Shown in pieces: positions 12,993 through 26,452 of a DNA stretch of 64,000 nucleotides. Both the position numbers and the translations under genes were made by a program. The stretch lies in assembly GCF_004214895.1 (NCBI RefSeq), contig NZ_CP035952.1, positions 4,784,501 through 4,848,500 of the forward strand, written 5' to 3'. A model generated the notes under the pieces. The model did no database searches, had not been told where the DNA came from, and worked only from the letters and a program-made list of their open reading frames with translations. The stretch's first letter is position 1, and each line of letters opens with the position of its first letter. This stretch comes from Pseudomonas tructae (lineage in GTDB: Bacteria; Pseudomonadota; Gammaproteobacteria; Pseudomonadales; Pseudomonadaceae).

Positions 12993-13451
12993 ATGATCCT
13001 GCAACGCCTCTTCGCCCTGTTCCTGCTGGCGATCTGCAGTGCCCTGATGGTGATGGCCTGGCCCTATCAGGCAGCCTTCTCCTACGAACCGATCGGCCCC
13101 CGCGCCTTTCCCTTGCTGATGCTCGGCCTGATGGCCTGCGGCCTGCTGTACCTGGCCTTTCGCCCGACGCCCCTGGTGCACAAGGACGACGAGCCTGAGC
13201 TCGACCGCGCCACCTTGAACAAAATCGTGATCTGCGTGGCCTTGCTGCTGGTTTTCGCCGCCTCCTTCGAACCGCTGGGCTTCATTCTCAGCAGTATCCT
13301 CATCGGCGTGCCCATGGCGCGCCTGTATGGCGGCCGCTGGCTGCCCAGTGTGGTGATCATCGTCTTGACCAGCCTGTCCCTGTACTGGCTGTTCGACCGC
13401 GTCATGGAAGTCCCTCTGCCCCTCGGCCTGCTCGACGTTCTGGAGAATTGA
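12993..13451 (+). CDS. tctB: TctB small membrane subunit of tricarboxylate transporter
   Basis: Four-helix small subunit of the TTT transporter. 152 residues with hydrophobic segments at about 5-25, 38-55, 75-110 and 118-135. It partners with TctA to form the membrane channel. The stop overlaps the tctA region with a single intervening base, so the genes are coupled. Confidence 0.9.
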   Translation: MILQRLFALFLLAICSALMVMAWPYQAAFSYEPIGPRAFPLLMLGLMACGLLYLAFRPTPLVHKDDEPELDRATLNKIVICVALLLVFAASFEPLGFILSSILIGVPMARLYGGRWLPSVVIIVLTSLSLYWLFDRVMEVPLPLGLLDVLEN

Positions 13452-13452
13452 C

Positions 13453-14967
13453 ATGGATACCTTCAGCTATCTGAGCCAGGGCTTCGGTGTCGCCCTGACC
13501 CCCTACAACCTGGTCACCGCCCTGACCGGCACCCTGATCGGCACCGTGGTCGGCCTGCTGCCTGGCCTGGGCCCGATCAACGGCGTGGCCCTGCTGATCC
13601 CGATTGCCTTCGCCCTCGGCCTGCCACCGGAATCGGCCCTGATCCTGCTGGCAGCGGTGTACCTGGGTTGCGAGTACGGCGGCCGTATCAGTTCGATCCT
13701 GCTCAATATTCCCGGCGAAGCCGCCACCGTCATGACCACCCTCGACGGCTACCCCATGGCCCGCCAGGGCCTGGCAGGTGTGGCCCTGTCGCTGTCAGCC
13801 TGGAGCTCGTTCATTGGCGCCTTCATTGCCACCTGCGGCATGGTCCTGTTCGCGCCGATACTGGCAAAATGGGCGATAGCCTTCGGGCCCGCCGAGTACT
13901 TCGTGCTCATGGTCTTTGCCATAGTCTGCCTTGGCGGTATGGCTGGCGACCGGCCGCTCAAGACCTTCATTGCCGCCTTGATCGGCCTGTTCCTGTCCTG
14001 CGTCGGGATCGACGCCAACAGCGGCGTCTACCGCTTCACCGGGGATAGTGTGCACCTGGCTGACGGCATTCAGTTCGTGGTGCTGGTGCTGGGCCTGTTC
14101 TCCATCAGCGAAATCCTCCTGCTGCTGGAAAAGACCCATCACGGTCATGAAGCGGTCAAGGCCACCGGGCGCATGCTGTTCAACTTCAAGGAAGCCGCCT
14201 CGGTCTTTGCCGTGAACATCCGCTGCGGCGTGCTCGGTTTTATCATGGGCGTGCTCCCTGGGGCCGGTGCGACGCTGTCCAGTGCCGTGGCCTACATGAC
14301 CGAAAAACGCATCGCCGGCCCCAGCGGCACCTTCGGCAAGGGTGACAAACGCGGCCTCGCCGCCCCGGAAACCGCCATCGGCGCCGAAGCCTGCGGCGCA
14401 CTGGTACCGATGCTGACCCTGGGTGTGCCAGGCTCGGGCACCACCGCGGTGATGATCGGGGCCTTGTCGCTGTACAACATCACCCCGGGGCCGATGCTGT
14501 TCGAGCAGCAGCCGGACATCGTCTGGGGGCTGATCGCTTCGTTGTTCATCGCCAACATCATGCTGGTGATCCTCAACATCCCGATGATCCGCATCTTCAC
14601 CCGCATTCTGGCGGTACCGAACTGGGCCCTGGTGCCCTTCATCGCGATCATCACCGCGATCGGCGTGTACGCGGTGCATGCCACCACCTTCGACCTGTTC
14701 CTGATGATCGGCATCGGCATCTTCGGCTACATCCTGCGCAAGCTGGACTTCCCGCTGTCGCCGATCCTGCTCGGCTTTATCCTCGGCGGGCTGATGGAGC
14801 AGAACCTGCGCCGGGCGCTGTCAATCTCCAACGGTACCCTGGATATCCTCTGGTCCAGTCCGATCAGTGTCAGCGTGTGGAGCCTGACCCTGGTCATGCT
14901 GTTCCTGCCGCTGCTGCGCATCTGGCGCAAGCGCAGCCTGCAACGGCGTGCCCTGGCCAATGGCTGA
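13453..14967 (+). CDS. tctA: TctA large membrane subunit of tricarboxylate transporter
   Basis: Twelve-helix permease of the tripartite tricarboxylate transporter. 504 residues, family length. The duplicated signature is visible as VVGLLPGLGPINGVALLIP (about residues 33-51) and GVLPGAGATLSSAVAYM (about 265-281), the two inverted-repeat halves. Import is driven by an ion gradient. Its last 8 bp overlap the start of the AbrB-family gene. Confidence 0.95.
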   Translation: MDTFSYLSQGFGVALTPYNLVTALTGTLIGTVVGLLPGLGPINGVALLIPIAFALGLPPESALILLAAVYLGCEYGGRISSILLNIPGEAATVMTTLDGYPMARQGLAGVALSLSAWSSFIGAFIATCGMVLFAPILAKWAIAFGPAEYFVLMVFAIVCLGGMAGDRPLKTFIAALIGLFLSCVGIDANSGVYRFTGDSVHLADGIQFVVLVLGLFSISEILLLLEKTHHGHEAVKATGRMLFNFKEAASVFAVNIRCGVLGFIMGVLPGAGATLSSAVAYMTEKRIAGPSGTFGKGDKRGLAAPETAIGAEACGALVPMLTLGVPGSGTTAVMIGALSLYNITPGPMLFEQQPDIVWGLIASLFIANIMLVILNIPMIRIFTRILAVPNWALVPFIAIITAIGVYAVHATTFDLFLMIGIGIFGYILRKLDFPLSPILLGFILGGLMEQNLRRALSISNGTLDILWSSPISVSVWSLTLVMLFLPLLRIWRKRSLQRRALANG

Positions 14968-15991
14968 TGGGCGGCTGAAACTGTACTGGGCCACCGGCCT
15001 GGTCGGCCTTGCCGGCGGATACCTGGCAAGCCTGGTCGGCTGGCCGCTGCCGTGGATGGTCGGCTCGTTGCTGGCGATCATCCTGGTGCGCTGCCTGACG
15101 CCCTGGCAACTGAGCGAGATCCCCGGCGGGCGCAAGTGCGGCCAATGGATCATCGGCATCGGCATCGGCCTGCACTTCACCCCGGCGGTGGTCGAACAGG
15201 TGGCGAGCAACTTCGGCCTGATCTTCTGCGGGGCGCTGATCACCAGTGTTTCCAGTGTGGTCGGCGTGTGGTTGCTCAGGCGCACCGGCGAAGACCGCGC
15301 CACGGCGTTCTTTTCCAGCATGCCCGGTGGCTCCGGGGAGATGGTCAACCTCGGCGCGCGCAATGGCGCGGTGCTCAGCCAGGTGGCGGCAGCGCAGAGC
15401 CTGCGGGTATTGGCGGTGGTGTTGTGCGTGCCAGCGCTGTTCAAGTTCCTGCTCGGCAACGGCGTACCGCTGACCCATACCGGCAGCGTCAACTGGGGCT
15501 GGCTGTTGCTGATCTGCCCGCTGGGGGTGTTGCTGGCCCTGGTTTGGCAGCGCTTGAAGCAACCCAACCCCTGGTTGTTCGGGCCGTTGCTGGTGGCGGC
15601 GGTGGCCAGTGTCAGCGCCAACCTGCAGGTTGCCCTGCCCGATGGCGCCAGCCAGATCGGCCAATGGCTGATCGGCAGTGGCCTGGGCTGTCACTTCAAT
15701 CGTGCATTCTTTCGCCGCGCGCCGTCGTTCCTGGGTCGCACCTTGATCGCCACGGCCCTGACCATGCTCATTGCAGGCGCTGCCGCTTACGTGCTCAGTG
15801 TCATGACCGACCTCGACCTGCGCTCGCTGACTCTGGGGATGATGCCCGGCGGCATCGCCGAGATGAGCCTGACCGCCGAAACCCTGCAACTGTCGGTGCC
15901 GTTGGTGACGGCGCTGCAGGTGATGCGCTTGCTGTTCGTACTGTTTCTCGCCGAGCCCTTGTTCAGGCATTGGGACAGGCGCTGCGACTGA
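14960..15991 (+). CDS. AbrB-family membrane protein coupled to tctA
   Basis: 343 residues from the ATG at 14960 (MADGRL); a GTG at 14948 would add four residues. AbrB family (once labelled ammonia monooxygenase regulator, not the Bacillus AbrB). About ten hydrophobic segments in two repeats, with repeated signatures WPLPWMVGSL and FFSSMPGGSGEMVNLGA / LGMMPGGIAEMSLTAE. ATGGCTGA contains both its start and the tctA stop, so translation is coupled. Function is unknown; the context suggests an accessory transporter for organic acids. A strong terminator follows. Confidence 0.85.
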   Translation: MADGRLKLYWATGLVGLAGGYLASLVGWPLPWMVGSLLAIILVRCLTPWQLSEIPGGRKCGQWIIGIGIGLHFTPAVVEQVASNFGLIFCGALITSVSSVVGVWLLRRTGEDRATAFFSSMPGGSGEMVNLGARNGAVLSQVAAAQSLRVLAVVLCVPALFKFLLGNGVPLTHTGSVNWGWLLLICPLGVLLALVWQRLKQPNPWLFGPLLVAAVASVSANLQVALPDGASQIGQWLIGSGLGCHFNRAFFRRAPSFLGRTLIATALTMLIAGAAAYVLSVMTDLDLRSLTLGMMPGGIAEMSLTAETLQLSVPLVTALQVMRLLFVLFLAEPLFRHWDRRCD

Positions 15992-15994
15992 AGC

Positions 15995-16027
15995 AAAAAA
16001 AAGAGGAAGCCAAGGCTTCCTCTTTTT
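15995..16027. terminator. Bidirectional intrinsic terminator
   Basis: An A-run, then GAGGAAGCC (16003-16011) pairing with GGCTTCCTC (16014-16022), then TTTTT. The A/T flanks make it work in both directions, ending the opdH-tct operon and the convergent autotransporter gene. Confidence 0.85.
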
Positions 16028-16038
16028 CATCAGCGCGC

Positions 16039-18147
16039 TTACCAGGTAAAACGCACCCCGACGTTGGCACCGAACGGCTTCTCGATCTTGTCGCCGTTGC
16101 TGTAATCGATATCGGCATGCACCTGCAGGCGCTCGGACAGTGACACGGCGATACCGGCACCGACCTCGGCACGCGAGCCGGACAGGTCGTTGTTGAACAC
16201 GTTATTGTTGACCTTGACCTTGTTGTTCTTGGCAAACTCGTGCACCGCAGCGGCACGCAGGTACGGCTGGGCAAAACGGCCCTCGCCCAGCTCGAAGTTG
16301 CGACCGACTGTGGCCCCGGCCTTACCCAGCACCGACAGGGTGCGATCGCCTTCAGCCTTCAGGCCGCTGTCCAGGTTGTAGGACGCGCCCTGGATGCTGA
16401 CGGCCGATACCTGGGCAAAAGGTTCAACGAAGAAACCGTCATCGAGCTTGATGTGGCGACCGAACTCGGCCGAGGCACCCACGCCATTAGTCTTGTAGCT
16501 GCCCTTGGCCTGGCTGCCGTCGCTCATGGCCACCTTGGACTTGTTGTCGAAGCGGTTGAGCTTGGCCACGGCGTCGAAGTAGTAACCGCTGTCCTGGTCC
16601 AGCCAGGTGGTATAGGCACCGGCATAGTAGCTGTCGACGGTACCGCTGGTACCGCGGTTCAGGTCCAGGTCGGAGCTGCTATGACCGGCCAGTACACCCA
16701 CCAGCCATTGGCTATCGCCCAGCTGGGCATCGGCACCCAGGGTGAAACCTTGCTGGGTCTGCTTGTAGGCGGTGCCAGACGATTCGGCCACGTTGTACTT
16801 GCTGCCATAAGCCCGGCTCCAGGCGCCGCTTTTACCTTCGTTGTAGCGCAACTCCCCCATGCGCGTACGCAGCGACGACAGCTCGCCGTACCAGACGGTC
16901 GGTGCGGTGTTGAACAGCGCCAGGACCGAACGGGTGCCGGGGCTGATGACCTTTGTCTCGGTGTCCAGGTGCCAGTCGTTGCCTTCTTTAATCAGGTCAT
17001 AGGAAAACGCACCCAGGTCGACAGGACCATTGACCAGGCTGAATTCGGCATCGCCGCCGCCGGTCGTGACCACGGTGACCCGCTCCACAGGGTCAAGCTC
17101 GAGCCCGCTGGCTTTGATGGCCAGGCCGAATTCGCCGTTGGCCTGACCGCTGACATTCAGGCGATCGCCTTCGCCGGTGGCGAAGTCGGCGGCCATCTGG
17201 AAGGTGCCGTTGCCTGACAGCTCATTGACGTCCAGGCGGTAGAACTGCTCTGCGCTACCAAAGCTGACGGTTGCACCGTTCAATGCCAGCTCGCCTACCT
17301 GACTATTGCCGGTCAGGGTCCACTGGCTACCGGCATCGGCGCTCAGGCTGGAAACGTTGCCCAGGCGTCCGACCAGTTGCGAACCATGCTGCAACTGCAC
17401 ATCAGCCTTGCCACCGGCGGCTACCAGAATGTCACCGTTAAGCTGCGATTCAGACATCGCCAGGGACACGCCACTGCCGCTGTCGACCTGGATGTTGCCG
17501 GTCAGCGCACTGCGCGCAACCTGCACATCGGCGGTCGAGCCCTGCTTGATTTCCAGCATGTTGCCGTTACCGCCAATCAGCTGGGCGCCATCACTGACGG
17601 TGATTTTCGCCTGGGTACGGGCATCGACCACCACGGCGGCGCCGCGCTCGCCAATCACTTTGGAACCGCTCATCACGTGCAACTCAGGCACTTCGCTGTT
17701 TGGTTCCAAGCCCACTGTTTCATGGGCCAGGAAGGCGCCGTTAAGCCCCCCCTGAATGATGCTTTGATCAACCGCCGTCACTCGGCCGCCATAGCTGCGT
17801 ACACCAATACTGCTAGCGCCGGTCGCGATCAGTTGCGACTGGTTGGCCAGGTTGAGCTGGCTGAACGCGGTCAGGCTGGCGCCGCCGGTAACAGCCGTAA
17901 GCTTGGTGTTGTTGAGGGTCAGGTTGGAGCCACGGAACTGGCCATTGGTAGTACGACCCAGGGATATAGCCTGGGCACTGGTGCTCTGCTCTTTGTCAGT
18001 GACGGTGAGGGTTTTCCCTATCAAACTGTAAAGGGTGGTGTTGCTGGTTTGCGCCATCAACTGGCTAGCGCACAGGCTTAATGGTGCTGCCAGGATAAAA
18101 GGCAGCACACGGGAAAACGGTGCAGAAGACAAGTAAATACGGGACAT
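16039..18147 (-). CDS. Autotransporter (type Va) with beta-helix passenger
   Basis: Self-secreting surface protein. 702 residues: signal peptide (LAAPLSLCASQLMAQ), a passenger of about 35-390 rich in short T/S/N/G strand repeats typical of a right-handed pertactin-like beta-helix, the linker TAPTVWYGELSSLRTRMGELR (about 410-430), and a C-terminal 12-strand barrel ending in GVRFTW. I see no protease, lipase or RGD motif in the passenger, so adhesion or aggregation is the default guess. Transcribed in the same direction as the two repeat proteins upstream but separated from them by a hairpin and its own leader. Confidence 0.88.
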   Translation of the reverse strand: MSRIYLSSAPFSRVLPFILAAPLSLCASQLMAQTSNTTLYSLIGKTLTVTDKEQSTSAQAISLGRTTNGQFRGSNLTLNNTKLTAVTGGASLTAFSQLNLANQSQLIATGASSIGVRSYGGRVTAVDQSIIQGGLNGAFLAHETVGLEPNSEVPELHVMSGSKVIGERGAAVVVDARTQAKITVSDGAQLIGGNGNMLEIKQGSTADVQVARSALTGNIQVDSGSGVSLAMSESQLNGDILVAAGGKADVQLQHGSQLVGRLGNVSSLSADAGSQWTLTGNSQVGELALNGATVSFGSAEQFYRLDVNELSGNGTFQMAADFATGEGDRLNVSGQANGEFGLAIKASGLELDPVERVTVVTTGGGDAEFSLVNGPVDLGAFSYDLIKEGNDWHLDTETKVISPGTRSVLALFNTAPTVWYGELSSLRTRMGELRYNEGKSGAWSRAYGSKYNVAESSGTAYKQTQQGFTLGADAQLGDSQWLVGVLAGHSSSDLDLNRGTSGTVDSYYAGAYTTWLDQDSGYYFDAVAKLNRFDNKSKVAMSDGSQAKGSYKTNGVGASAEFGRHIKLDDGFFVEPFAQVSAVSIQGASYNLDSGLKAEGDRTLSVLGKAGATVGRNFELGEGRFAQPYLRAAAVHEFAKNNKVKVNNNVFNNDLSGSRAEVGAGIAVSLSERLQVHADIDYSNGDKIEKPFGANVGVRFTW

Positions 18148-18252
18148 GATGAGTCACACTCTCGAACGCTGTTAGTCAGAATGAAAAACAGAGCTGACAC
18201 AACCGTGCTCCGTTTTCAGGCTTGCAGCGTACAGAGGTACTCAGAAAGACTA

Positions 18253-18269
18253 TGTAGGAATAATCTACA
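18253..18269. promoter_or_regulatory. Dyad resembling a LuxR/GacA-type operator upstream of the autotransporter
   Basis: TGTAG (18253-18257) and CTACA (18265-18269) flank a 7 bp AT-rich centre, about 105 bp upstream of the autotransporter start. The shape resembles NarL/LuxR-family operators; the GacA box is TGTAAG-N6-CTTACA, one base longer. A second TGTAG half-site lies nearby on the minus strand (near 18286-18291). Confidence 0.35.
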
Positions 18270-18307
18270 AGAACAACAGGGGATTTCTACAGCGCATCAT
18301 TGACAGA

Positions 18308-18338
18308 CAAGGGCCGGCAGCCAGGCTCCCGGCCCTTG
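18308..18338 (-). terminator. Hairpin after the repeat-protein gene
   Basis: CAAGGGCCGG (18308-18317) and CCGGCCCTTG (18329-18338) form a perfect 10 bp stem 6 bp past the stop of the minus-strand gene. The T-run is poor, so termination strength is uncertain. Confidence 0.55.
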
Positions 18339-18344
18339 TTCAAG

Positions 18345-20318
18345 TTACAACTTACCGACTCTTACAGATTTACGACGTCGCGCAAATGTGGGAACACAGT
18401 TGCCTGAGCCCTGACGAATATTGTATTGGTAAGTCCGCTCTGCAGACACGCCAACTGGAATACCATCGCGTACCACGCTCCAGCTGATACGGATAAAAGC
18501 CAGGTTAGGCGCCGGTTTGATGTATTCGTCCCAGAGCACCGAAATCGATATCCCAAATTCAACATGCGTGGGATCGGAAACATCCCCTCTGAGCGCCACA
18601 ACGGTTCCCTCCACCGGTTCACTGCCGCTCAGAGGGTACATGGCCCAATTCACCGTGATATTATCACCGAGCTGCAACTTGCTCGGATCACTGACCCGTA
18701 CGGTCATGCCATTCCATGGCGCATGTTCACACAGAACCGTCGGGTTACCGGTGGGTGGGATAGTGACGCCTACGATACTCGGCAAGGCCAGGCCTTCCAG
18801 CTGCTCGATGACCGCGCGTACCTTTTCCGATTCAGACTCCTGGTAGTTTTCCGCCGTTGCATCTTTGTAGAGGCGATAGAACAGCGGCTGCTGTAAACCA
18901 TTGCCAACTTCGATAACATCCTCAGCGCTGATGATCATGTCGATCACCCCACCAGCTTCTTCAGTGGTAATGGTATGAGTGGCCACCAGTTTTGCCGAAG
19001 GGCCATAGTACAACCGGATAACCTCACCGGCGTTTACCGGGGAATAGACCGCTACTTCGACAGTGACTTCTGTGCCACGATCTTCGGGGGTCAGTTCATT
19101 CTCAAACCCGCTGACAGGTCCAATCAGCAAAGGCAGCAGCAGGTCCGGGTTGACCGGATCCGGCTCCTCCGGGTTCGGCGGCCCGACCCTGGTCGTATCG
19201 ACCTCGACATCATTGATATCAGAGGGATATGGGCGCCCGCGACTGACCAGGTAATCAACCTCGGCGGTGTAGGCCTCGGCCTTGTCTACGGTGGCGAAAC
19301 GCGCAGTAGCTTCCAATGGCCAGACTTGAAACTCGCTGGTGACAAATGTCCCAATTGTCACCCCATCCCAGCGGATATGGACGATATCACCCGGTAGCCA
19401 GTTGGTATATTTCTTCACCAGAACCACAACACCCTGACGTGCGTCTGCCAGATCGATGGGCTCGTTGGGCACCTCCGGTTCCACTAGATCAGCCGGCGCG
19501 GGATCCAGGGCCAACACCATCGGTTGAGGGAGGGAAAACCTGGTTTCGTTGCCGGCCGCATCGGTGAGCTTGAGCCAGATAGGCGTGTAGCCACTAAGGA
19601 GCGTTTCCAGCTCTTCCCGGAGTACATCGATGCTGAAATATGCCCTTCCGCCGCTCTCATCAGGCACCACTGTACCCGCTTTTATTGGCCCACTTTGCTT
19701 CCCCATGAACAGTGACCAAAGGTCCCCCGGGTTAGGATCGGCATAGCGGGGGACATCCAGGGTCAGTACATCATCATTAGCCGCCAGGTACTCTGCAGTC
19801 ACTTCGGTTCCGACAAGGTCTTCCGGGAGCAGCGGACTTGGCGGAGTGCCGCCGAATGCAGGGTCCAAGGTATCGACGATGACATCCCGTGAGTCTGAAT
19901 AGCTTTCATTCTGGTTTTTCACCCTATAGGTAATACGTCGTAAGCCATCGCCACCCAGTTGCGCTCGACTCAACGTGCGCACAATGGGAAAAGATCCTGG
20001 TGGATGATCGGCCGGCACCCTGATACCTTCAATCTGGGGCACATTATTTACCAAGATGTCGATGACATCTTCCGGGTCAAAACCCGCGCTTTCGTATTCA
20101 GAAATTATTACATCCAAGCCCCGCGCAAGGTTCGCGGTCAGAATCAGGCCATTTGCCTCAATAGGAAAGGCTGTTGGAGCAGGCAATGTGTTCGACGTTT
20201 CCGAGGGAATCTCGACCTTTCTGCTGGCTGAGCGGAGGGACGTCGCCTTTTGCTTGGTCGACGCTTTACTGGTTTGAGTCTTCTTGCTGGTTTTGGGTAA
20301 AACTTCTTGTTTAGTCAT
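18345..20318 (-). CDS. Multi-repeat beta-rich protein of unknown function (paralogue A)
   Basis: 657 residues, function not recognised. A Lys/Thr/Ser-rich tail (residues 1-45) with no signal peptide is followed by about five units of 110-125 residues. Units contain a (P/L)G(D/E)xV motif: NPGDL 196-200, LPGDI 308-312, NAGEV 429-433, QLGDN 549-553, with a degenerate first unit. Units are joined by Pro-rich linkers (VDTLDPAFGGTPPSP), as in Ig-like beta-sandwich arrays. The last unit has two Cys (530 and about 642) and the end is basic (FARRRKSVRVGKL). It is co-linear with the upstream gene, so the two are tandem duplicates. Base composition is visibly more AT-rich than neighbours, suggesting recent acquisition. 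Adhesin-like or envelope role is a guess. Confidence 0.8.
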   Translation of the reverse strand: MTKQEVLPKTSKKTQTSKASTKQKATSLRSASRKVEIPSETSNTLPAPTAFPIEANGLILTANLARGLDVIISEYESAGFDPEDVIDILVNNVPQIEGIRVPADHPPGSFPIVRTLSRAQLGGDGLRRITYRVKNQNESYSDSRDVIVDTLDPAFGGTPPSPLLPEDLVGTEVTAEYLAANDDVLTLDVPRYADPNPGDLWSLFMGKQSGPIKAGTVVPDESGGRAYFSIDVLREELETLLSGYTPIWLKLTDAAGNETRFSLPQPMVLALDPAPADLVEPEVPNEPIDLADARQGVVVLVKKYTNWLPGDIVHIRWDGVTIGTFVTSEFQVWPLEATARFATVDKAEAYTAEVDYLVSRGRPYPSDINDVEVDTTRVGPPNPEEPDPVNPDLLLPLLIGPVSGFENELTPEDRGTEVTVEVAVYSPVNAGEVIRLYYGPSAKLVATHTITTEEAGGVIDMIISAEDVIEVGNGLQQPLFYRLYKDATAENYQESESEKVRAVIEQLEGLALPSIVGVTIPPTGNPTVLCEHAPWNGMTVRVSDPSKLQLGDNITVNWAMYPLSGSEPVEGTVVALRGDVSDPTHVEFGISISVLWDEYIKPAPNLAFIRISWSVVRDGIPVGVSAERTYQYNIRQGSGNCVPTFARRRKSVRVGKL

Positions 20319-20415
20319 GGTTGTCTACTTTCGCGAACATTACTTTAACCCAGCACTGTGCTGGATGCCGTGTTGCCAAACGCACCTACTTTCACTCAAT
20401 ACGAACTTTCCTCAT

Positions 20416-22338
20416 TCAAGGCTCGACCGGATCACCGTTGTCGCAGTAAAACTCACTGCCAGGCTCGATAACCGACAGCCGTACCTGTGAGCGCGGCGAG
20501 TTTCCGACCCCGCCGCCGTTGGCGGCTGCCTTGACCAGCCGGTAGCTGACAACCCCCGCTCCGCGCAAGCGCGCGGCCGCCTGGATCAAAGGTTCATAAG
20601 GCCAGACGTCGATTTCGAAACCCTCGCGGGCATCGTCAGCGCTCAGCACATGAGAGAATTGGGCCTGAGTACCTTCAATCGGGTCCCCCCCCACCTGGCC
20701 ACGGTCAGCAACCCAGAACAGGGTGACCCGGTCCTGCGCGGCGAAACGCTGAGCGTCCCCTGGAATCCGGACCTTCACGCCATTCACCCAGGGTTGGTAG
20801 GCACAATTGACCCACCCCCCCTCGGCGGTTCCGGGAAACGTTGCCCGAGCCAGGCCTTCGATAATCCGAATTTGTACATCGACGCGTGTCGTGGGCGAAT
20901 GCTGGGTATTAACGCCATTGAAGGTGCTGTAATAGACCGGCAGCGCAGGGTTGCTGCCGACAGCATTGATGATCGCCCAAGGCACGCTGAAAGCGATGGT
21001 CGCGCCGCCAGTGTCTCCAGGCTTGATCTCGTAGGTAGCAGCGGGCCCGGCGTGGCTGCCCCAATACAACTGCAGCACCTGCCCCGGTTGCGGGTTGGCG
21101 TACAACACCAACTCCACCCGGGCGTCGTGATCGACATCCTCGGCACCGAGCTGATCATCGCCAGCGCGACCCTTGACCACCACTGAGGCCAGCCTTGGGT
21201 TGACAAGCTCAGGGCCTTGCGGATCGGGCCCGGCCACTGTCAGGTTCAGCGCCACCGACAAAGCGCGTGACGGCCTGGCACGCCAGGTGAAATGCACCTG
21301 GTCGTTGCGCTCGACAAAGCCTGCGGCGGTCAATACCTCAAACCCCACCGGGAACTTCACCGGCCAACGCAAAGGTGCGGGCAGGTCGATACTGCCCACC
21401 GGCAACCCACGCCAATAGCCGATAACGCGGTCGCCAGGGCGGGCGTCGATGATTTCATTGATGACCAGCTCGACGCCGGTACGTGCCCGCTCCAGGTCGA
21501 TCAGCCCCGCAGGCTCGACCTGTGGCAGCGGTAAAGGGCTCGGCGTGCTGCCCAGGTCAACATTGATTTCGTTGACATCGGAAAGGGGCCCGCGATTGCT
21601 GGTACGGTCTTCCAAGTCGTAGCTCAGATAGCGCAAGCCATTACCGCTGTTGCGAATGGAATCGGCTGGCACTCTGAGCTCGACTGGCGCATCTTTATCT
21701 CGCACCACGAACTCGTCCACGGCCTCCAGCACATCATTCAGGCGGGAAAAGCTACGCCAGTACAGGCGCACGCTATCGCCCAGGCGCATGTCACGCCACG
21801 ACTCCAGCCGAATGTTCACCCCTTGGTGTGCCGCCAGGTAGTCCTCGTTCAAGCCCTCCGGCCCGATAGGCACAATCGGCTCGGGCTTGCTACCTCTCTG
21901 GCCAGTGTTGGGCGCAGTCCTGTCGATGTTCAGCAACACCTCATCGGACAGCGCGGCATTACCCATATGGATGCGGTAGCTGACCCTGTGAGAGCCTGCG
22001 GTTGTGAGGTTGACTTGCGGTACCGTAAGCTCCAGCGGAATGATCGCTTGCGGGTCGTATGGCCAGATCAGAGGGGGGTCTAGAGAATTTACCCGCTGAC
22101 CATCCCAGAGCAGCTCAACCTGGGTTACATCCCCTGGGAAACCCTCATGCTGCGGCCAGATCTCATCAATGACCACCTGCAAATCCCGCAATTGGTCGTC
22201 CTTGTGAATCAGATGATGGTTTTGATCATCTGACTCCAATGCCATTGCCGCCGGTACCACTGGCGCTTTGTAGCTGACCACCTGGGACGACTCAGAGGAT
22301 GCGTCCTGCTCGAGCGGTGATGGAGTGAACCCGGACAT
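20416..22338 (-). CDS. Multi-repeat beta-rich protein of unknown function (paralogue B)
   Basis: 640 residues, not recognised. About 35 N-terminal low-complexity residues without a signal peptide, then five units with the motif PGDxVxLYW: FPGDV (67-71), LGDSVRLYWRS, PGDRVIGYWRG, PGQVLQLYWGS and QDRVTLFWVA. Linkers such as NIDRTAPNTG and LIDLERARTG match those of the downstream paralogue (IDLADARQG) at the same unit boundary. The final unit again has NCAYQPWVNGV and a Cys near the C terminus. A GGGAGAGG ribosome site precedes the ATG. Repeats resemble bacterial Ig-like domains, but no export signal is seen. The 97 bp to the next gene holds a short palindrome. Confidence 0.8.
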   Translation of the reverse strand: MSGFTPSPLEQDASSESSQVVSYKAPVVPAAMALESDDQNHHLIHKDDQLRDLQVVIDEIWPQHEGFPGDVTQVELLWDGQRVNSLDPPLIWPYDPQAIIPLELTVPQVNLTTAGSHRVSYRIHMGNAALSDEVLLNIDRTAPNTGQRGSKPEPIVPIGPEGLNEDYLAAHQGVNIRLESWRDMRLGDSVRLYWRSFSRLNDVLEAVDEFVVRDKDAPVELRVPADSIRNSGNGLRYLSYDLEDRTSNRGPLSDVNEINVDLGSTPSPLPLPQVEPAGLIDLERARTGVELVINEIIDARPGDRVIGYWRGLPVGSIDLPAPLRWPVKFPVGFEVLTAAGFVERNDQVHFTWRARPSRALSVALNLTVAGPDPQGPELVNPRLASVVVKGRAGDDQLGAEDVDHDARVELVLYANPQPGQVLQLYWGSHAGPAATYEIKPGDTGGATIAFSVPWAIINAVGSNPALPVYYSTFNGVNTQHSPTTRVDVQIRIIEGLARATFPGTAEGGWVNCAYQPWVNGVKVRIPGDAQRFAAQDRVTLFWVADRGQVGGDPIEGTQAQFSHVLSADDAREGFEIDVWPYEPLIQAAARLRGAGVVSYRLVKAAANGGGVGNSPRSQVRLSVIEPGSEFYCDNGDPVEP

Positions 22339-22442
22339 AAAACCTCTCCCTGGCCAGGGGCTGCCTGGCGTTGCGTACAGGGAGATTATTTAATGCCCTA
22401 TTTCTACCCACCGAAACTGGCAAAAATACTAGGTACCCGGCG

Positions 22443-23135
22443 TTAAACCGCTGGCAAACGCCAGTCGATCGCGGTCAGCCCGCGCTGCTCCAGAAAGCTG
22501 TTGGCCCGGCTGAAATGCCCGCAGCCGAGGAAGCCCCGGTAGGCCGACAAGGGCGATGGATGCACCGATTTGAGTACCAGGTGCTTGGTGGCATCGATGA
22601 GTTTCTGCTTGCTCTGGGCATGCGCGCCCCAGAGCAGGAACACGCAGTTGGCCTGCTGTTCGCTGACCACTTCGATGATGCGGTCAGTGAAGAACTCCCA
22701 GCCTTTTTTGGCATGAGACGCGGCGTTGGCGCGCTCGACGGTCATGGTGGTGTTGAGCAGCAACACGCCCTGCTCGGCCCAGGATTGCAGGCAGCCGTGC
22801 CTGGGAATCTCGATGTTCAGGTCGCGCTGCAACTCTTTGTAGATATTGACCAGCGACGGCGGCGTGGTCACCCCCGGTTGCACCGAGAAGCACAGGCCAT
22901 GGGCCTGGCCCGGGCCGTGGTACGGGTCCTGGCCGAGGATCACCACCTTGACCTTATCCAGCGGGGTGGAGTTGAGGGCGTTGAAGATCAACGGGCCCGG
23001 TGGGTAGATTTCCTTGCCCGCTGCGTACTCCTGGCGCAGGAACTCGCGCAACTGGTGCATGTACGGCTGGTCGAATTCGGCGCGCAGGGCCTGTTTCCAG
23101 CTGGGTTCAAGTTTGATGCGGTCGTCGTCGGTCAT
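22443..23135 (-). CDS. ung: Uracil-DNA glycosylase
   Basis: Removes uracil from DNA in base-excision repair. 230 residues from the ATG at 23135 (MTDDDRIKL). Family motifs: water-activating Asp in [20 protein letters not shown] and the DNA-intercalation loop [12 protein letters not shown] longer in-frame start at 23165 has no support. Divergent from the acyl-CoA enzyme gene. Confidence 0.95.
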
Positions 23136-23261
23136 GGTCAGGTCCGTAAAACAATGGCGCGACACTAGGAAAGCCGCCTGCGCTTGTCAATCGATCCGAC
23201 CGGCGACCGCCGAAATCGCCAGCAGCGGCCATACTTGAGCGGATCAACCCCGAGGTCGCCC

Positions 23262-24371
23262 ATGACTGCAGTATTGTGCGAAGAACTCACTGGCGTCGAC
23301 GGCGCGCGGATCGGCGTCGCCACCCTCAATGCGCCGCAAACCCTCAATGCCTTGTCGCTGCCGATGATCGAGGTGCTCGACGAACAGCTCAAGGCCTGGG
23401 CCGATGACCCGGACCTGGTCTGCGTACTGTTGCGCGGCGCTGGCGCCAAGGCCTTCTGCGCCGGTGGCGAGGTGCGCAGCCTGGCCCAGGCCTGCCTTGA
23501 GCATCCCGGCCGGGTACCGCCCCTGGCGGCGCATTTTTTTGCCGCCGAGTACCGTTTCGACTACCGCCTGCACACCTACCCCAAACCGCTGATCTGCTGG
23601 GGCCATGGCCATGTGTTGGGCGGCGGAATGGGTGTGTTGCAGGGCGCCAATGTGCGCGTGGTCACCCCGGGCAGCCGCCTGGCCATGCCGGAAATCAGCA
23701 TCGGCCTGTACCCGGATGTCGGCGGCAGTTGGTTTTTGTCACGCCTGCCCGGCAAGCTCGGTTTGTTCCTGGGCCTGACCGGTGCCCCGATCAACGCCAG
23801 CGATGCCCTGGACCTGGGCCTGGCAGACCGCCTGCTCGGCGAAAGCCAGCAGGAGGAGTTGCTCGATGACTTGCTGCAACTGAACTGGCAGGAGCAGACC
23901 GCCCTGCAGCTCAACAGCCTGCTCAAGGCCCAGCAGCATGCGGCCCAGGCCGAGCGCCCCGAGGCCCAGTGGCTGCCAAGGCGTCGGCAGATCGACGCGC
24001 TGCTCGATGTCGCCGACCCGGTGTGCGCCTGGCGCGCCATCGCCCAGTGGCGCAACCATGACGACCCACTGCTGGCCAAGGCTGCGCAGACCATGCTTGA
24101 CGGTTGCCCACTGACCGCTCATCTGGTGTGGGAGCAGATCCAACGAGCCAAGTACCTGTCCCTGGCCCAGGTGTTCCAGATGGAATACACCATGAGCCTC
24201 AATTGCTGCCAGCATCCGGAATTCAGCGAAGGCGTGCGTGCCCGGCTGATCGACAAGCAGCAAAAACCGCGCTGGCACTGGGCGGATATCGCCCAGGTAC
24301 CAACGGCGGTGATCGATGCGCATTTCAACAAGGCCTGGGAGGGCCGTCACCCATTGGCCGACCTGGTCTGA
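23262..24371 (+). CDS. Enoyl-CoA hydratase/isomerase family, 3-hydroxyisobutyryl-CoA hydrolase-like
   Basis: Crotonase-fold enzyme of 369 residues; the length and the C-terminal extension (WEQIQRAKYLSLAQVFQMEYTMSLNCC) fit the 3-hydroxyisobutyryl-CoA hydrolase group of valine catabolism rather than ordinary hydratases. Oxyanion-hole segments: GAKAFCAGGEVRSL (about 62-75) and GHGHVLGGGMGV (about 112-123); catalytic-region acidic residues in MPEISIGLYPDVGGSW. Start chosen at the ATG at 23262 (MTAVLCEEL), in agreement with the family. It stands alone, not in a valine cluster. Confidence 0.85.
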   Translation: MTAVLCEELTGVDGARIGVATLNAPQTLNALSLPMIEVLDEQLKAWADDPDLVCVLLRGAGAKAFCAGGEVRSLAQACLEHPGRVPPLAAHFFAAEYRFDYRLHTYPKPLICWGHGHVLGGGMGVLQGANVRVVTPGSRLAMPEISIGLYPDVGGSWFLSRLPGKLGLFLGLTGAPINASDALDLGLADRLLGESQQEELLDDLLQLNWQEQTALQLNSLLKAQQHAAQAERPEAQWLPRRRQIDALLDVADPVCAWRAIAQWRNHDDPLLAKAAQTMLDGCPLTAHLVWEQIQRAKYLSLAQVFQMEYTMSLNCCQHPEFSEGVRARLIDKQQKPRWHWADIAQVPTAVIDAHFNKAWEGRHPLADLV

Positions 24372-24376
24372 GTGCC

Positions 24377-24754
24377 TCAACGGCGCCAGTTGCGATCCGG
24401 CCAGCCATCACGGCTGCGCTCGTGACGTGACGAGCCCTGACGGTCGCGGTCGTAGCCTCGGCCTGGGTAAGGCTTGTAATAGTTATGCGGTGCTTCCCGG
24501 TAGTAGCCGTGGGGCGCCGGGCGGTAATAATGCGGAGGTGGCGCGTAGTAACGCGGTGGTGGCGCCACATAATAACGCGGTTGCGGTGCTACATAGTAAC
24601 CACGGTTGTAGGGATAGGCCGGCCGGTAGTAACCCGGATAACCATAGCGATCGGCGGTGTAGACCTCGGTGCGGTAATAGCCGTTACCGGCATAGGGGAC
24701 ACAAGCGGTTGTCAGCAAACCCAACACTGCAATCAGCAAAAGTCGGCGATACAT
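24377..24754 (-). CDS. Tyr-rich repeat lipoprotein
   Basis: 125 residues from the ATG at 24754, preceded by GGGAGG. The lipobox LTTAC (residues about 14-18) gives a lipoprotein. The mature part is dominated by Tyr/Pro/Arg repeats (RYYVAPPPRYYAPPPHYY), then a basic Arg/Asp-rich tail. No known fold. Similar low-complexity lipoproteins occur in many pseudomonads with unknown function. It is convergent with the crotonase gene, 5 bp apart. Confidence 0.75.
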   Translation of the reverse strand: MYRRLLLIAVLGLLTTACVPYAGNGYYRTEVYTADRYGYPGYYRPAYPYNRGYYVAPQPRYYVAPPPRYYAPPPHYYRPAPHGYYREAPHNYYKPYPGRGYDRDRQGSSRHERSRDGWPDRNWRR

Positions 24755-24967
24755 GGCGGCCTCCCGGACCGCGAAACTGCCCATCCCAGCGGCGCTGGTC
24801 GGCGTCGATCGGCAAGTGTTCATCGACACTGGATAAGACTGTCAAAACCCGTTCAGGTGCCATTGCTGCAATAAATTGATACAAGGCTGATACCCGTAAA
24901 AATCGTAAAGTTATTTTCCCGCCAGAGCACTAGAATACCTGCCATTGGCCCACCGCTCGGGAATGTC

Positions 24968-26452
24968 ATGCCGCCTCGTTCCGCCCTGTTTTCACAGCGC
25001 TCGCTGATCCTGACATTATTGCTGTTGCTCGCCTGCGGTTTCTTGGCGACTTCCCTGCTCAGCTACTTCGCCTCGCGCAGTTCGATCCGCGACAACATCG
25101 TCAACACCGAGCTGCCGCTGACCTCCGATACGGTCTATTCGGAAATTCAGAAGGACCTGGTGCGGCCGATCCTGATCTCCTCGATGATGGCCCACGACAC
25201 CTTCCTGCGCGACTGGGCACTGGGCGGCGAGCGTGACACCGCCCAGGTGACCCGCTACCTGGACGAGGTCATGCGCCAGCACCAGGCCTACACGGCGTTC
25301 TTCGTCTCCAGCACTACGGGGATCTACTACCAGGCCAAGGGCGTGCTCAAGCAGATCGACCCGCAGGACCCTCGGGACGCCTGGTACCCGCGGGCGCTAC
25401 GCATGAACACGCCCTACGAGATCAACGTCGACCTGGACATGGCCAACCAGGACCGGCTCACGGTGTTCATCAACTATCGAGTGCTGGACTACGACGGCAA
25501 GCTGATCGGCATCGCCGGCCTGGGCCTGACCGTCGAAGCGGTGATCCGCCTGATCGACGACTACCAGCAGCGCTACCAGCGCCAGGTGTTCTTCGTCGAT
25601 CCACAGGGGCGAATCGTGCTGACCGGCTCGCACGGCGGGCCCCATGGCGCCAGGAGCGGCCAGCCGCTGGGCCAACTGGACGGGCTCGAGCACATGCCAC
25701 AACCCCTCAGCGGCAGTCACGAATACAGCAGCAGCGATGGCCACAGTCACTTCCTCAACGTGCGCCTGGTGCCGGAGCTGAACTGGTACCTGTTCGTCGA
25801 CAAGCGCGAAGACGGCGCCGTGGATGCCATTCGCCAGTCGCTGTACCTGAACCTGGTGATCTGCGCGATCATCACCCTGGTGGTCCTGTCGTTGCTCAAT
25901 GCCATGGTCAAGCGCCATCAAGACAACATTGAAACCCTGGCCACCCTCGACAGCCTCACCGGTCTGCCCAACCGCCGCGGCTTCGACCTGCTCGCTGCGC
26001 AAGCACTGCACGAAGCCCAGCGCGAGCCCAAGGCGCTGATTGCCCTGCTGATCGACCTCGACCACTTCAAGGCGCTCAACGACACCCACGGCCACCTGGC
26101 CGGCGACGAGGTGCTGCGCCAGTTCGCCCAGGTGCTCGAGGACTGCCTGCGCCAGGCTGATATAATCTGCCGCTGGGGCGGTGAGGAGTTCATCGTGCTG
26201 CTCAAGGACACCGACCGCCAGCAGGCCCTGGCGGTGGCCGAGAAAATCCGCAGCAGGACCCAAGCGCTGGCCTTCAGCTATGCCGAGCAACCGATCCACC
26301 TGACCGCCAGCATCGGCTTGAGCAACCTGCAGGCCGACGATACCCTGCACAGCCTGATCGCCCGTGCCGATCATGCCCTGTACCGGGCCAAACAGAGTGG
26401 ACGTAACCGCGTTTGCAGCGAGATGCCCCGATCCGACCATGAACAGCCTTGA
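24968..26452 (+). CDS. Membrane diguanylate cyclase (dCache-GGEEF)
   Basis: Makes c-di-GMP from two GTP. 494 residues: membrane helix 1 (about 12-32), a large periplasmic dCache-like sensor domain (about 40-290), helix 2 (LVICAIITLVVLSLLNAMV) and a GGDEF domain with an intact GGEEF active site. An RxxD inhibitory site (RQAD) lies five residues ahead of it, so feedback inhibition is expected. Followed after 2 bp by a small Cys-rich protein, so probably co-transcribed. Confidence 0.92.
   Translation: MPPRSALFSQRSLILTLLLLLACGFLATSLLSYFASRSSIRDNIVNTELPLTSDTVYSEIQKDLVRPILISSMMAHDTFLRDWALGGERDTAQVTRYLDEVMRQHQAYTAFFVSSTTGIYYQAKGVLKQIDPQDPRDAWYPRALRMNTPYEINVDLDMANQDRLTVFINYRVLDYDGKLIGIAGLGLTVEAVIRLIDDYQQRYQRQVFFVDPQGRIVLTGSHGGPHGARSGQPLGQLDGLEHMPQPLSGSHEYSSSDGHSHFLNVRLVPELNWYLFVDKREDGAVDAIRQSLYLNLVICAIITLVVLSLLNAMVKRHQDNIETLATLDSLTGLPNRRGFDLLAAQALHEAQREPKALIALLIDLDHFKALNDTHGHLAGDEVLRQFAQVLEDCLRQADIICRWGGEEFIVLLKDTDRQQALAVAEKIRSRTQALAFSYAEQPIHLTASIGLSNLQADDTLHSLIARADHALYRAKQSGRNRVCSEMPRSDHEQP

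Follow-up and report, generated by a model that had tools for sequence, protein, structure and literature searches.

The 64,000-nucleotide stretch of Pseudomonas tructae DNA analysed here (contig NZ_CP035952.1, positions 4,784,501 to 4,848,500; hereafter the window) carries two adjacent genes for repeat proteins, REP-B and REP-A, followed on the same strand by an autotransporter gene, AT (Table 1). This order had been recorded in the initial annotation with the autotransporter as a mere neighbour, and the association is stronger than that: REP genes and AT are linked in presence and in position across the genus, and both REPs vary between species along with the passenger part of the AT.

Table 1. 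Features of the REP-AT locus and its flanks (window positions; a dot marks features given without strand)
Feature	Position	Strand	Details and basis
REP-B, five Ig-like units, upstream gene	20416..22338	-	640 aa; open reading frame, predicted model, unit profiles
REP-B unit 1, residues 22-141	21916..22275	-	model and unit cut
REP-B unit 2, residues 142-263	21550..21915	-	model and unit cut
REP-B unit 3, residues 264-371, IDLxxARxG linker near start	21226..21549	-	model and unit cut
REP-B unit 4, residues 372-492	20863..21225	-	model and unit cut
REP-B unit 5, residues 493-628	20455..20862	-	model and unit cut
CCAGCAC-T-GTGCTGG inverted repeat between REP-B and REP-A	20350..20364	.	sequence
REP-A, second five-unit protein	18345..20318	-	657 aa; open reading frame, predicted model
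Autotransporter AT, 702 aa	16039..18147	-	Pfam; pertactin domain residues 284-395, beta-barrel 442-680
AT residues 1-300, passenger part varying along with REP genes	17248..18147	-	sequence comparison
Variable cassette: REP-B, REP-A, AT passenger	17248..22386	.	nearly no alignable DNA against P. donghuensis and P. wadenswilerensis
Conserved flank: uracil-DNA glycosylase and enoyl-CoA hydratase genes	22387..25000	.	~90% DNA identity, same two species
Conserved flank: AT barrel, PF05145 (AbrB) gene, TctA gene	13401..17247	.	~89% DNA identity

Two paralogous Ig-like chains and a pertactin-type autotransporter

Both open reading frames (ORFs) stand at the coordinates first assigned to them, and their homologous five-unit layout is supported by AlphaFold and by unit profile comparison alike. 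REP-A and REP-B match each other with E-values of 3e-28 and 2e-29 at 28% identity, and on this sequence evidence they are paralogues, well past chance. The beta-rich units, for which structure prediction had been proposed as a check, gave immunoglobulin (Ig)/FN3-like models in both proteins (mean predicted local distance difference test score, pLDDT, 90.0 for REP-B and 85.7 for REP-A), and each protein is thus predicted to be a chain of Ig/FN3-like beta-sandwiches. The units were compared as profiles, with boundaries cut by hand on a REP-B-anchored alignment (A4); nine of the ten unit pairs matched at 93.7-97.9% probability, and unit 1 against unit 5 at 45%. The view that no well-characterised family is involved was borne out, with no Pfam, NCBIfam or PADLOC family matching REP-A or REP-B at E<=1. 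This includes the Ig-like families Big_1 to Big_13 of Pfam and NCBIfam and, for the pair as well as for two giant relatives described below, the anti-phage defence families of PADLOC. Membership of a known Ig-repeat or toxin family was rejected given the absence of any library match and a PDB sequence search of REP-B that returned two chance-level matches. Extracellular Ig/FN3 chains abound in the structural match lists, which is informative on fold only, and the named Foldseek hits among viral models include Ig/FN3-type phage proteins.

The sequence motifs are sparser than initially described. PGDxVxLYW, reported from every unit, is degenerate, with a literal PGD at an equivalent place (judged by eye) in two units per protein (residues 68 and 301 of REP-B, 197 and 309 of REP-A), and IDLxxARxG, taken for a unit-boundary linker, occurs as a single copy in each. 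Two Cys had been attributed to the last unit, and both are conserved, with only one of them lying within the motif then quoted and the other near the C-terminus (C530/C641 in REP-A and likewise C512/C632 in REP-B, where C512 is inside unit 5 and C632 just after it). Both columns are invariant in 38 aligned sequences, which comprise only members of 580-760 aa and include both window proteins. The Lys/Thr-rich tail ascribed to the downstream copy does belong to REP-A but is N-terminal; its residues 1-42 are basic and predicted to be disordered, nearly all at pLDDT <50. N-terminal tails of the REP-A type are net positive in 19 of 20 cases (median +9 per 100 residues vs. -7.2 for the rest) and those of the REP-B type in 9 of 18, start codons being uncertain in both sets of counts.

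Judged from its sequence, the third gene is a pertactin-type classical (type Va) autotransporter. The C-terminal beta-barrel matches PF03797 (E 6e-53) and TIGR01414 (E 6e-100), the pertactin-type passenger matches PF03212, and the N-terminus reads by eye as hydrophobic and signal-like. Among the homologues in the AT cluster 41/42 match each of the two AT domains; one of the 42 is the N-terminal piece of a broken gene.

Co-occurrence of REP genes and the autotransporter

The genus survey covered 199 sampled genomes, with an AT threshold of E<=1e-120 fixed in advance. REP-B as sole query matched 93 of these genomes at E<=1e-10 and profile A4 matched 143 at E<=1e-15. REP and AT profiles were found together in 137 genomes, REP only in 6, AT only in 6 and neither in 50 (Fisher p 2e-33, a value that ignores the relatedness of species). 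Four of the six REP-only genomes carry AT sequence beside REP: it falls just under the threshold in genome G049, is divergent in G145 and consists of fragments in G146 and G172. In the AT-only set, a REP remnant adjoins the AT of G129, and G131 has weak REP matches elsewhere. Beyond the genus, matches were found in 12/148 genomes of the taxonomic family sample (2/19 genera), in 6/244 of the order sample, where three hits are weak and cover part of long frames that belong to other families, and in 1/274 of the class sample, the P. tructae genome itself. The REP-B query had no match among phage records and one among 72,556 plasmid records, and a mobile origin was rejected on these two results.

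The same association is seen in gene position. We compared 43 loci (numbered with L below), made up of the window, two stretches of the own genome with giant relatives, and 40 stretches from 36 other genomes chosen regardless of AT. The AT cluster is present in 41 of them, the exceptions being the solo giants L007 and L008, and the next commonest neighbour clusters reach 12/43 loci, with most neighbours unannotated. Neighbourhood comparison had been proposed as a way of finding a secretion partner, and the recurrent neighbour that it yields is the AT. Conversely, loci selected by their AT have a REP match nearby in 19 of 20 cases, although in L118 the match is a short remnant, and a contig scan of named genomes, several of which overlap the other sets, found REP then AT in 19/19 loci. 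A second genus of the family (L140) also has the order REP-REP-AT. This order is kept on Yersinia frederiksenii plasmid NZ_MT039225.1, the single strong REP relative found outside the taxonomic family, where a 624-aa REP (profile score 417) and a 1177-aa REP-like protein are joined by a distant AT (score 177 vs. ~1000 for close AT members). A second annotated autotransporter, with no AT-profile match, lies a few kb past this trio (L144:28284-31196).

REP family members range from ~270 codons to 2090 aa. The longest are the two giants of the own genome (L007:2931-9203, 2090 aa; L008:6005-12265, 2086 aa), where a third long relative occupies a 1060-codon frame (L150:4268-7447); none of the three stretches yielded an AT. 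Some of the long relatives, which measure 1000-2090 aa, carry extra Ig domains or Big domains. At the other extreme, a short form of ~270-300 codons in L116, L117, L121, L124-L126 and L128-L130 (e.g., L116:4707-5561) reads as the first unit plus the last Cys-bearing unit and immediately precedes a REP of five-unit size and an AT. REP-B of the closest relative, P. rubra, is broken (L042:6340-8004), with a 554-aa ORF and the remainder in another frame.

Joint variation of both REPs and the passenger

Evidence for a shared history comes from comparison with P. rubra (L042), P. donghuensis (L043) and P. wadenswilerensis (L088), with flank genes named by Pfam. Window positions 13400-24999 are as a whole 92.7% identical to P. 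rubra, whereas against the other two species the flanks keep 89-90% DNA identity and the 5.1 kb between them aligns only in 67-70% patches. At the protein level the window and P. donghuensis share 92% identity in uracil-DNA glycosylase (ung), 93% in enoyl-CoA hydratase (ech) and 96% in the AT barrel, and 40% in the passenger, 46% in REP-B and 36% in REP-A. Faster amino-acid change alone is disfavoured as the cause, as fourfold sites in the block lie far below the flanks. Taken at conserved residues, with random expectations from codon usage, fourfold sites of this pair are 76-78% identical in ung, ech, the barrel and a 347-aa gene (~50% expected at random), and 48% identical in REP-B, 34% in REP-A and 38% in the passenger (random expectation 31, 28, and 41%). 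The AT edge of the block is graded, with 67% fourfold identity in the region before the barrel. By these sequence data the block has a history separate from, and longer than, that of its flanks, most simply explained by replacement.

The pattern recurs elsewhere. L043 and L140 show it at the DNA level, and the pairs L047/L059 and L044/L046 combine conserved flanks and barrel with unalignable REPs and a less divergent passenger (61% identical with 55% of fourfold sites against 39% at random, and 60% with 63% against 43%, respectively). A near-random fourfold level is confined to REP-A and to the window/L043 passenger; it is exceeded by REP-B and, in L047/L059 and L044/L046, by the passenger. 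Among 43 pairs with barrels >=85% identical, drawn from 68 modules, passenger and nearest REP are both high in 9 and both low in 22, with 4 discordant pairs and 8 in neither class; the concordance gives Fisher p 4e-5, the pairs not being independent.

Base composition adds a further detail. The downstream copy is indeed the more A+T-rich, as initially noted, with a GC content at third codon positions of 0.584 for REP-A, the lowest of 41 window gene calls >600 bp, vs. 0.707 for REP-B (median 0.808). The accompanying suggestion that the two genes may have come from different donors is not supported in that form, given that REP-B, REP-A and the passenger differ as one block from P. donghuensis and jointly match P. 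rubra; REP-A is nevertheless compositionally odd.

Evolutionary rates were compared in four pairs of close relatives, L049 being a member of two pairs. The ratio of nonsynonymous to synonymous change (dN/dS) is 0.14-0.60 for REPs, 0.05-0.23 for the passenger, 0.00-0.04 for the barrel and 0.01-0.11 for flanking genes (ung and enoyl-CoA hydratase, joined by the 347-aa neighbour in two pairs). Synonymous divergence (dS) is uneven within pairs, for example 0.03 in REP-A and 0.18 in ung of L049/L101, and 0.53 and 0.10, respectively, in L087/L088. Recombination therefore touches close pairs too, and the dN/dS values are rough. By this measure the REPs appear constrained but loosely so, as expected of exposed recognition surfaces; other causes could also loosen constraint.

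Two short elements lie between the genes. The palindrome CCAGCAC/GTGCTGG is exactly where the initial annotation placed it, but of 25 REP-REP intergenic regions examined only three, those of the window, L042 and L043, contain a CAGCAC...GTGCTG repeat, and we rejected it as a conserved operator on that count. Between REP-A and AT, an inverted repeat at 18309-18337 (AAGGGCCGG...CCGGCCCTT) is possibly a terminator or attenuator. Further neighbours, among those scanned in the 43 loci, are Rhs/YD-repeat genes beside the module in at least four (L063:919-6006, L064:12964-17082, L066:1115-6073, L075:2682-8648). The 1988-aa ORF of L075 was considered as an Rhs-REP fusion that might point to polymorphic toxins and was rejected, as it has no Rhs core model match; its REP part seems by eye to have its own start, and so the ORF is probably a truncated Rhs frame running into REP. 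Large proteins of a single cluster adjoin the module in three loci (L051:11532, L060:10974-16457, L061:11514). Repeats of the cadherin-like, VWA and RTX kinds are present in the L060 copy, the sole member scanned, which in this resembles a type I secreted adhesin.

A putative surface cassette and its place among known systems

Where the REP proteins act depends on how, and whether, they leave the cell. Neither has a hydrophobic N-terminal segment by sequence and hydropathy, and the initial reading that both lack a signal peptide was upheld on inspection and by their absence from the list of hydrophobic N-termini. Family N-termini are mostly polar. The best 12-residue hydropathy exceeds 2.0 in 24/42 ATs (median 2.08) vs. 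8/113 REP-cluster proteins (median 1.31), and those eight are by eye two unrelated exported proteins (cluster c43) and otherwise mostly over-long or edge ORFs; a 19-residue stretch with hydropathy >1.6 occurs anywhere in 21/113. The Cys pair of the last unit is a hint of an outside location. An alignment-based count over 126 proteins, which allowed a window of 4 columns, gave both Cys in 87, neither in 24 and one in 15, so that the pair is mostly kept or lost together; these counts are approximate, as at least one protein, N_L122, scored neither despite two last-unit Cys and some L071-L074-type proteins carry Cys at shifted positions. Disulphides as an argument for export were rejected, since the pair is co-kept and yet total Cys shows no even bias. 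A second hint comes from L059:4661-6187 and L067:158-2761, members of a protein family with signal-like N-termini that may, from a motif, be halovibrin-like. The L059 protein, by eye a putative lipoprotein, has its C-terminal ~170 aa in common with the long REP relative at the same locus.

In our preferred interpretation, for which we put the odds at about even, both REPs and the AT passenger belong to a single surface-recognition cassette that is co-adapted and can be exchanged, and the Ig chains act together with the passenger outside the cell. Autotransporters of this family cross the inner membrane via Sec, insert their barrel into the outer membrane and expose the passenger, and the Pfam matches suggest that this AT would do the same with its pertactin-type passenger. 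The two leaderless Ig-like chains would exit independently of any N-terminal signal and function at the cell exterior, attached to the passenger or lying beside it; docking or anchoring could fall to the Cys-bearing last unit and to REP-A's basic N-terminal tail. In many loci long relatives are encoded alongside, and these may extend the same surface structure. Both REPs and the passenger, going by the comparisons above, appear to be replaced en bloc between conserved barrel DNA and the upstream housekeeping gene, and the purpose could be a variable recognition surface with which cells adhere, recognise kin or a host, or escape phage or grazers. The undescribed secreted or surface repeat system first proposed is thus favoured by the lack of a family match and by the association with AT in presence, position and exchange, while secretion itself is something we infer. 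A bolder version, that a classical autotransporter displays or even exports leaderless Ig-chain partners in a new type V arrangement, with specificity swapped as a cassette and the barrel kept, is tentative and on balance doubtful.

Several observations weigh against such a cassette. Genomes G038 and G088 have REP with no AT found, the AT-only genomes G023, G071, G120, and G157 show no REP at E<=0.001, the AT-selected locus L120 is without a REP match, and L007 and L008, both of them long relatives, are solitary. The AT lies on the opposite strand in L052, L053 and L071-L074, so that gene orientation varies and there is no single operon. Similarity of AT and nearest REP over 38 loci is weakly correlated (Spearman 0.25; 4/2000 permutations as high), and the four discordant module pairs include L131/L132, with a passenger 77% and a REP 36% identical. 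Within one and the same cassette, in the window and L042, the passenger is 97% identical and REP-A has drifted to 79%. The passengers of L044/L046 and L047/L059 are unsaturated, unlike REP-A, and the passenger may therefore not always be co-replaced. Total Cys number is even in 38 and odd in 32 of 70 proteins of 580-760 aa, which argues against systematic disulphides, and the Yersinia REP is Cys-free. No export route for the REPs was identified in these sequences.

Other explanations place the REPs elsewhere or release them differently. They could be soluble leaderless proteins that are freed by lysis, as are bacteriocins and Rhs/Tc-type proteins, and that bind the AT of neighbouring kin in a recognition or competition system. 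The missing signal in both REPs, their fast change, their divergence along with the passenger and the Rhs/YD-repeat genes in at least four of the 43 loci would all suit this; however, no toxin domain was recognised, no library family matches the pair and the genes flanking it in the window are those for uracil-DNA glycosylase, enoyl-CoA hydratase, PF05145 and TctA, and we regard lysis release as unlikely. The REPs could also be secreted by a type I (ABC) route as SiiE-type adhesins without RTX, leaving the AT as functional partner only, for instance as co-adhesin or receptor; RTX-less members of this class exist. Pfam gives neither REP a match at E<=1, to RTX or to anything else, no other cluster among the mostly unannotated neighbours recurs as the AT does, and a conserved Cys is unusual for such substrates; we regard this explanation as unlikely, slightly more so than lysis release.

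It is also conceivable that the REPs stay inside the cell as assembly factors for the AT passenger, and their pairing with one AT type and exchange along with the passenger, not the barrel, is what one would expect of such factors. Relatives of 1000-2090 aa, some with extra Ig domains, are nonetheless unlike chaperones, the structural lists, informative for fold only, are rich in extracellular Ig/FN3 chains, and most autotransporters are not known to need assembly partners of this sort; we think this role improbable. Finally, linkage might reflect no shared function, but a recombination hotspot that swaps anything between ung and the barrel. In favour of this, ung and enoyl-CoA hydratase genes of shared clusters (c2 and c3; 12 loci each) adjoin several of the modules. 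REP-AT pairing is nevertheless found away from c2/c3 in many loci, in a second genus (L140; possibly the same site as L043) and on the Yersinia plasmid, and presence and absence are coupled genome-wide. Pairing at different sites already disfavours a hotspot, which we consider highly improbable.

Both halves of the module are present in 137/199 genus genomes, yet the window REPs match no curated family. If the REPs reach the surface they would need an export or display route that type V models are not known to include, and if they stay off it, so close a pairing with an autotransporter and its passenger would be equally odd. The cassette structure also offers natural allele sets for studying recognition between passenger and partner. 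Literature titles and abstract openings, a scope that excludes subscription papers and preprints, contained no description of the REP-AT pairing. Ig folds and autotransporters are known kinds, and it is their combination in a leaderless Ig-chain and autotransporter cassette that, as far as tested in this partial literature, is undescribed.

In comparison with known systems, the AT itself resembles pertactin-type type Va proteins (PF03797 and PF03212) in its pertactin domain, its barrel and an N-terminus that looks hydrophobic by eye. Familiar classical autotransporters act as single proteins, whereas this one is associated with leaderless Ig-chain genes and its passenger varies along with those between species. 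SiiE/BapA-like giant adhesins share signal-less Ig-like chains with the REPs, and Big domains with some of the long relatives. The REPs differ in lacking an RTX match, in forming short five-unit pairs, in having an AT neighbour with no recurrent second neighbour seen, and in the two Cys in the last unit of most members. Two-partner secretion (TPS, type Vb) likewise involves a protein encoded beside an outer-membrane beta-barrel, but the REPs have no visible Sec signal and no TPS-type Pfam match at E<=1, and the barrel beside them is that of an autotransporter, which brings a passenger of its own. Variable specificity cassettes, such as polymorphic toxin tips and phage tail-fibre modules, offer a parallel, in that specificity parts flanked by conserved DNA are exchanged en bloc; here the parts that appear to vary as a block are two whole Ig-chain genes and the passenger of an autotransporter.

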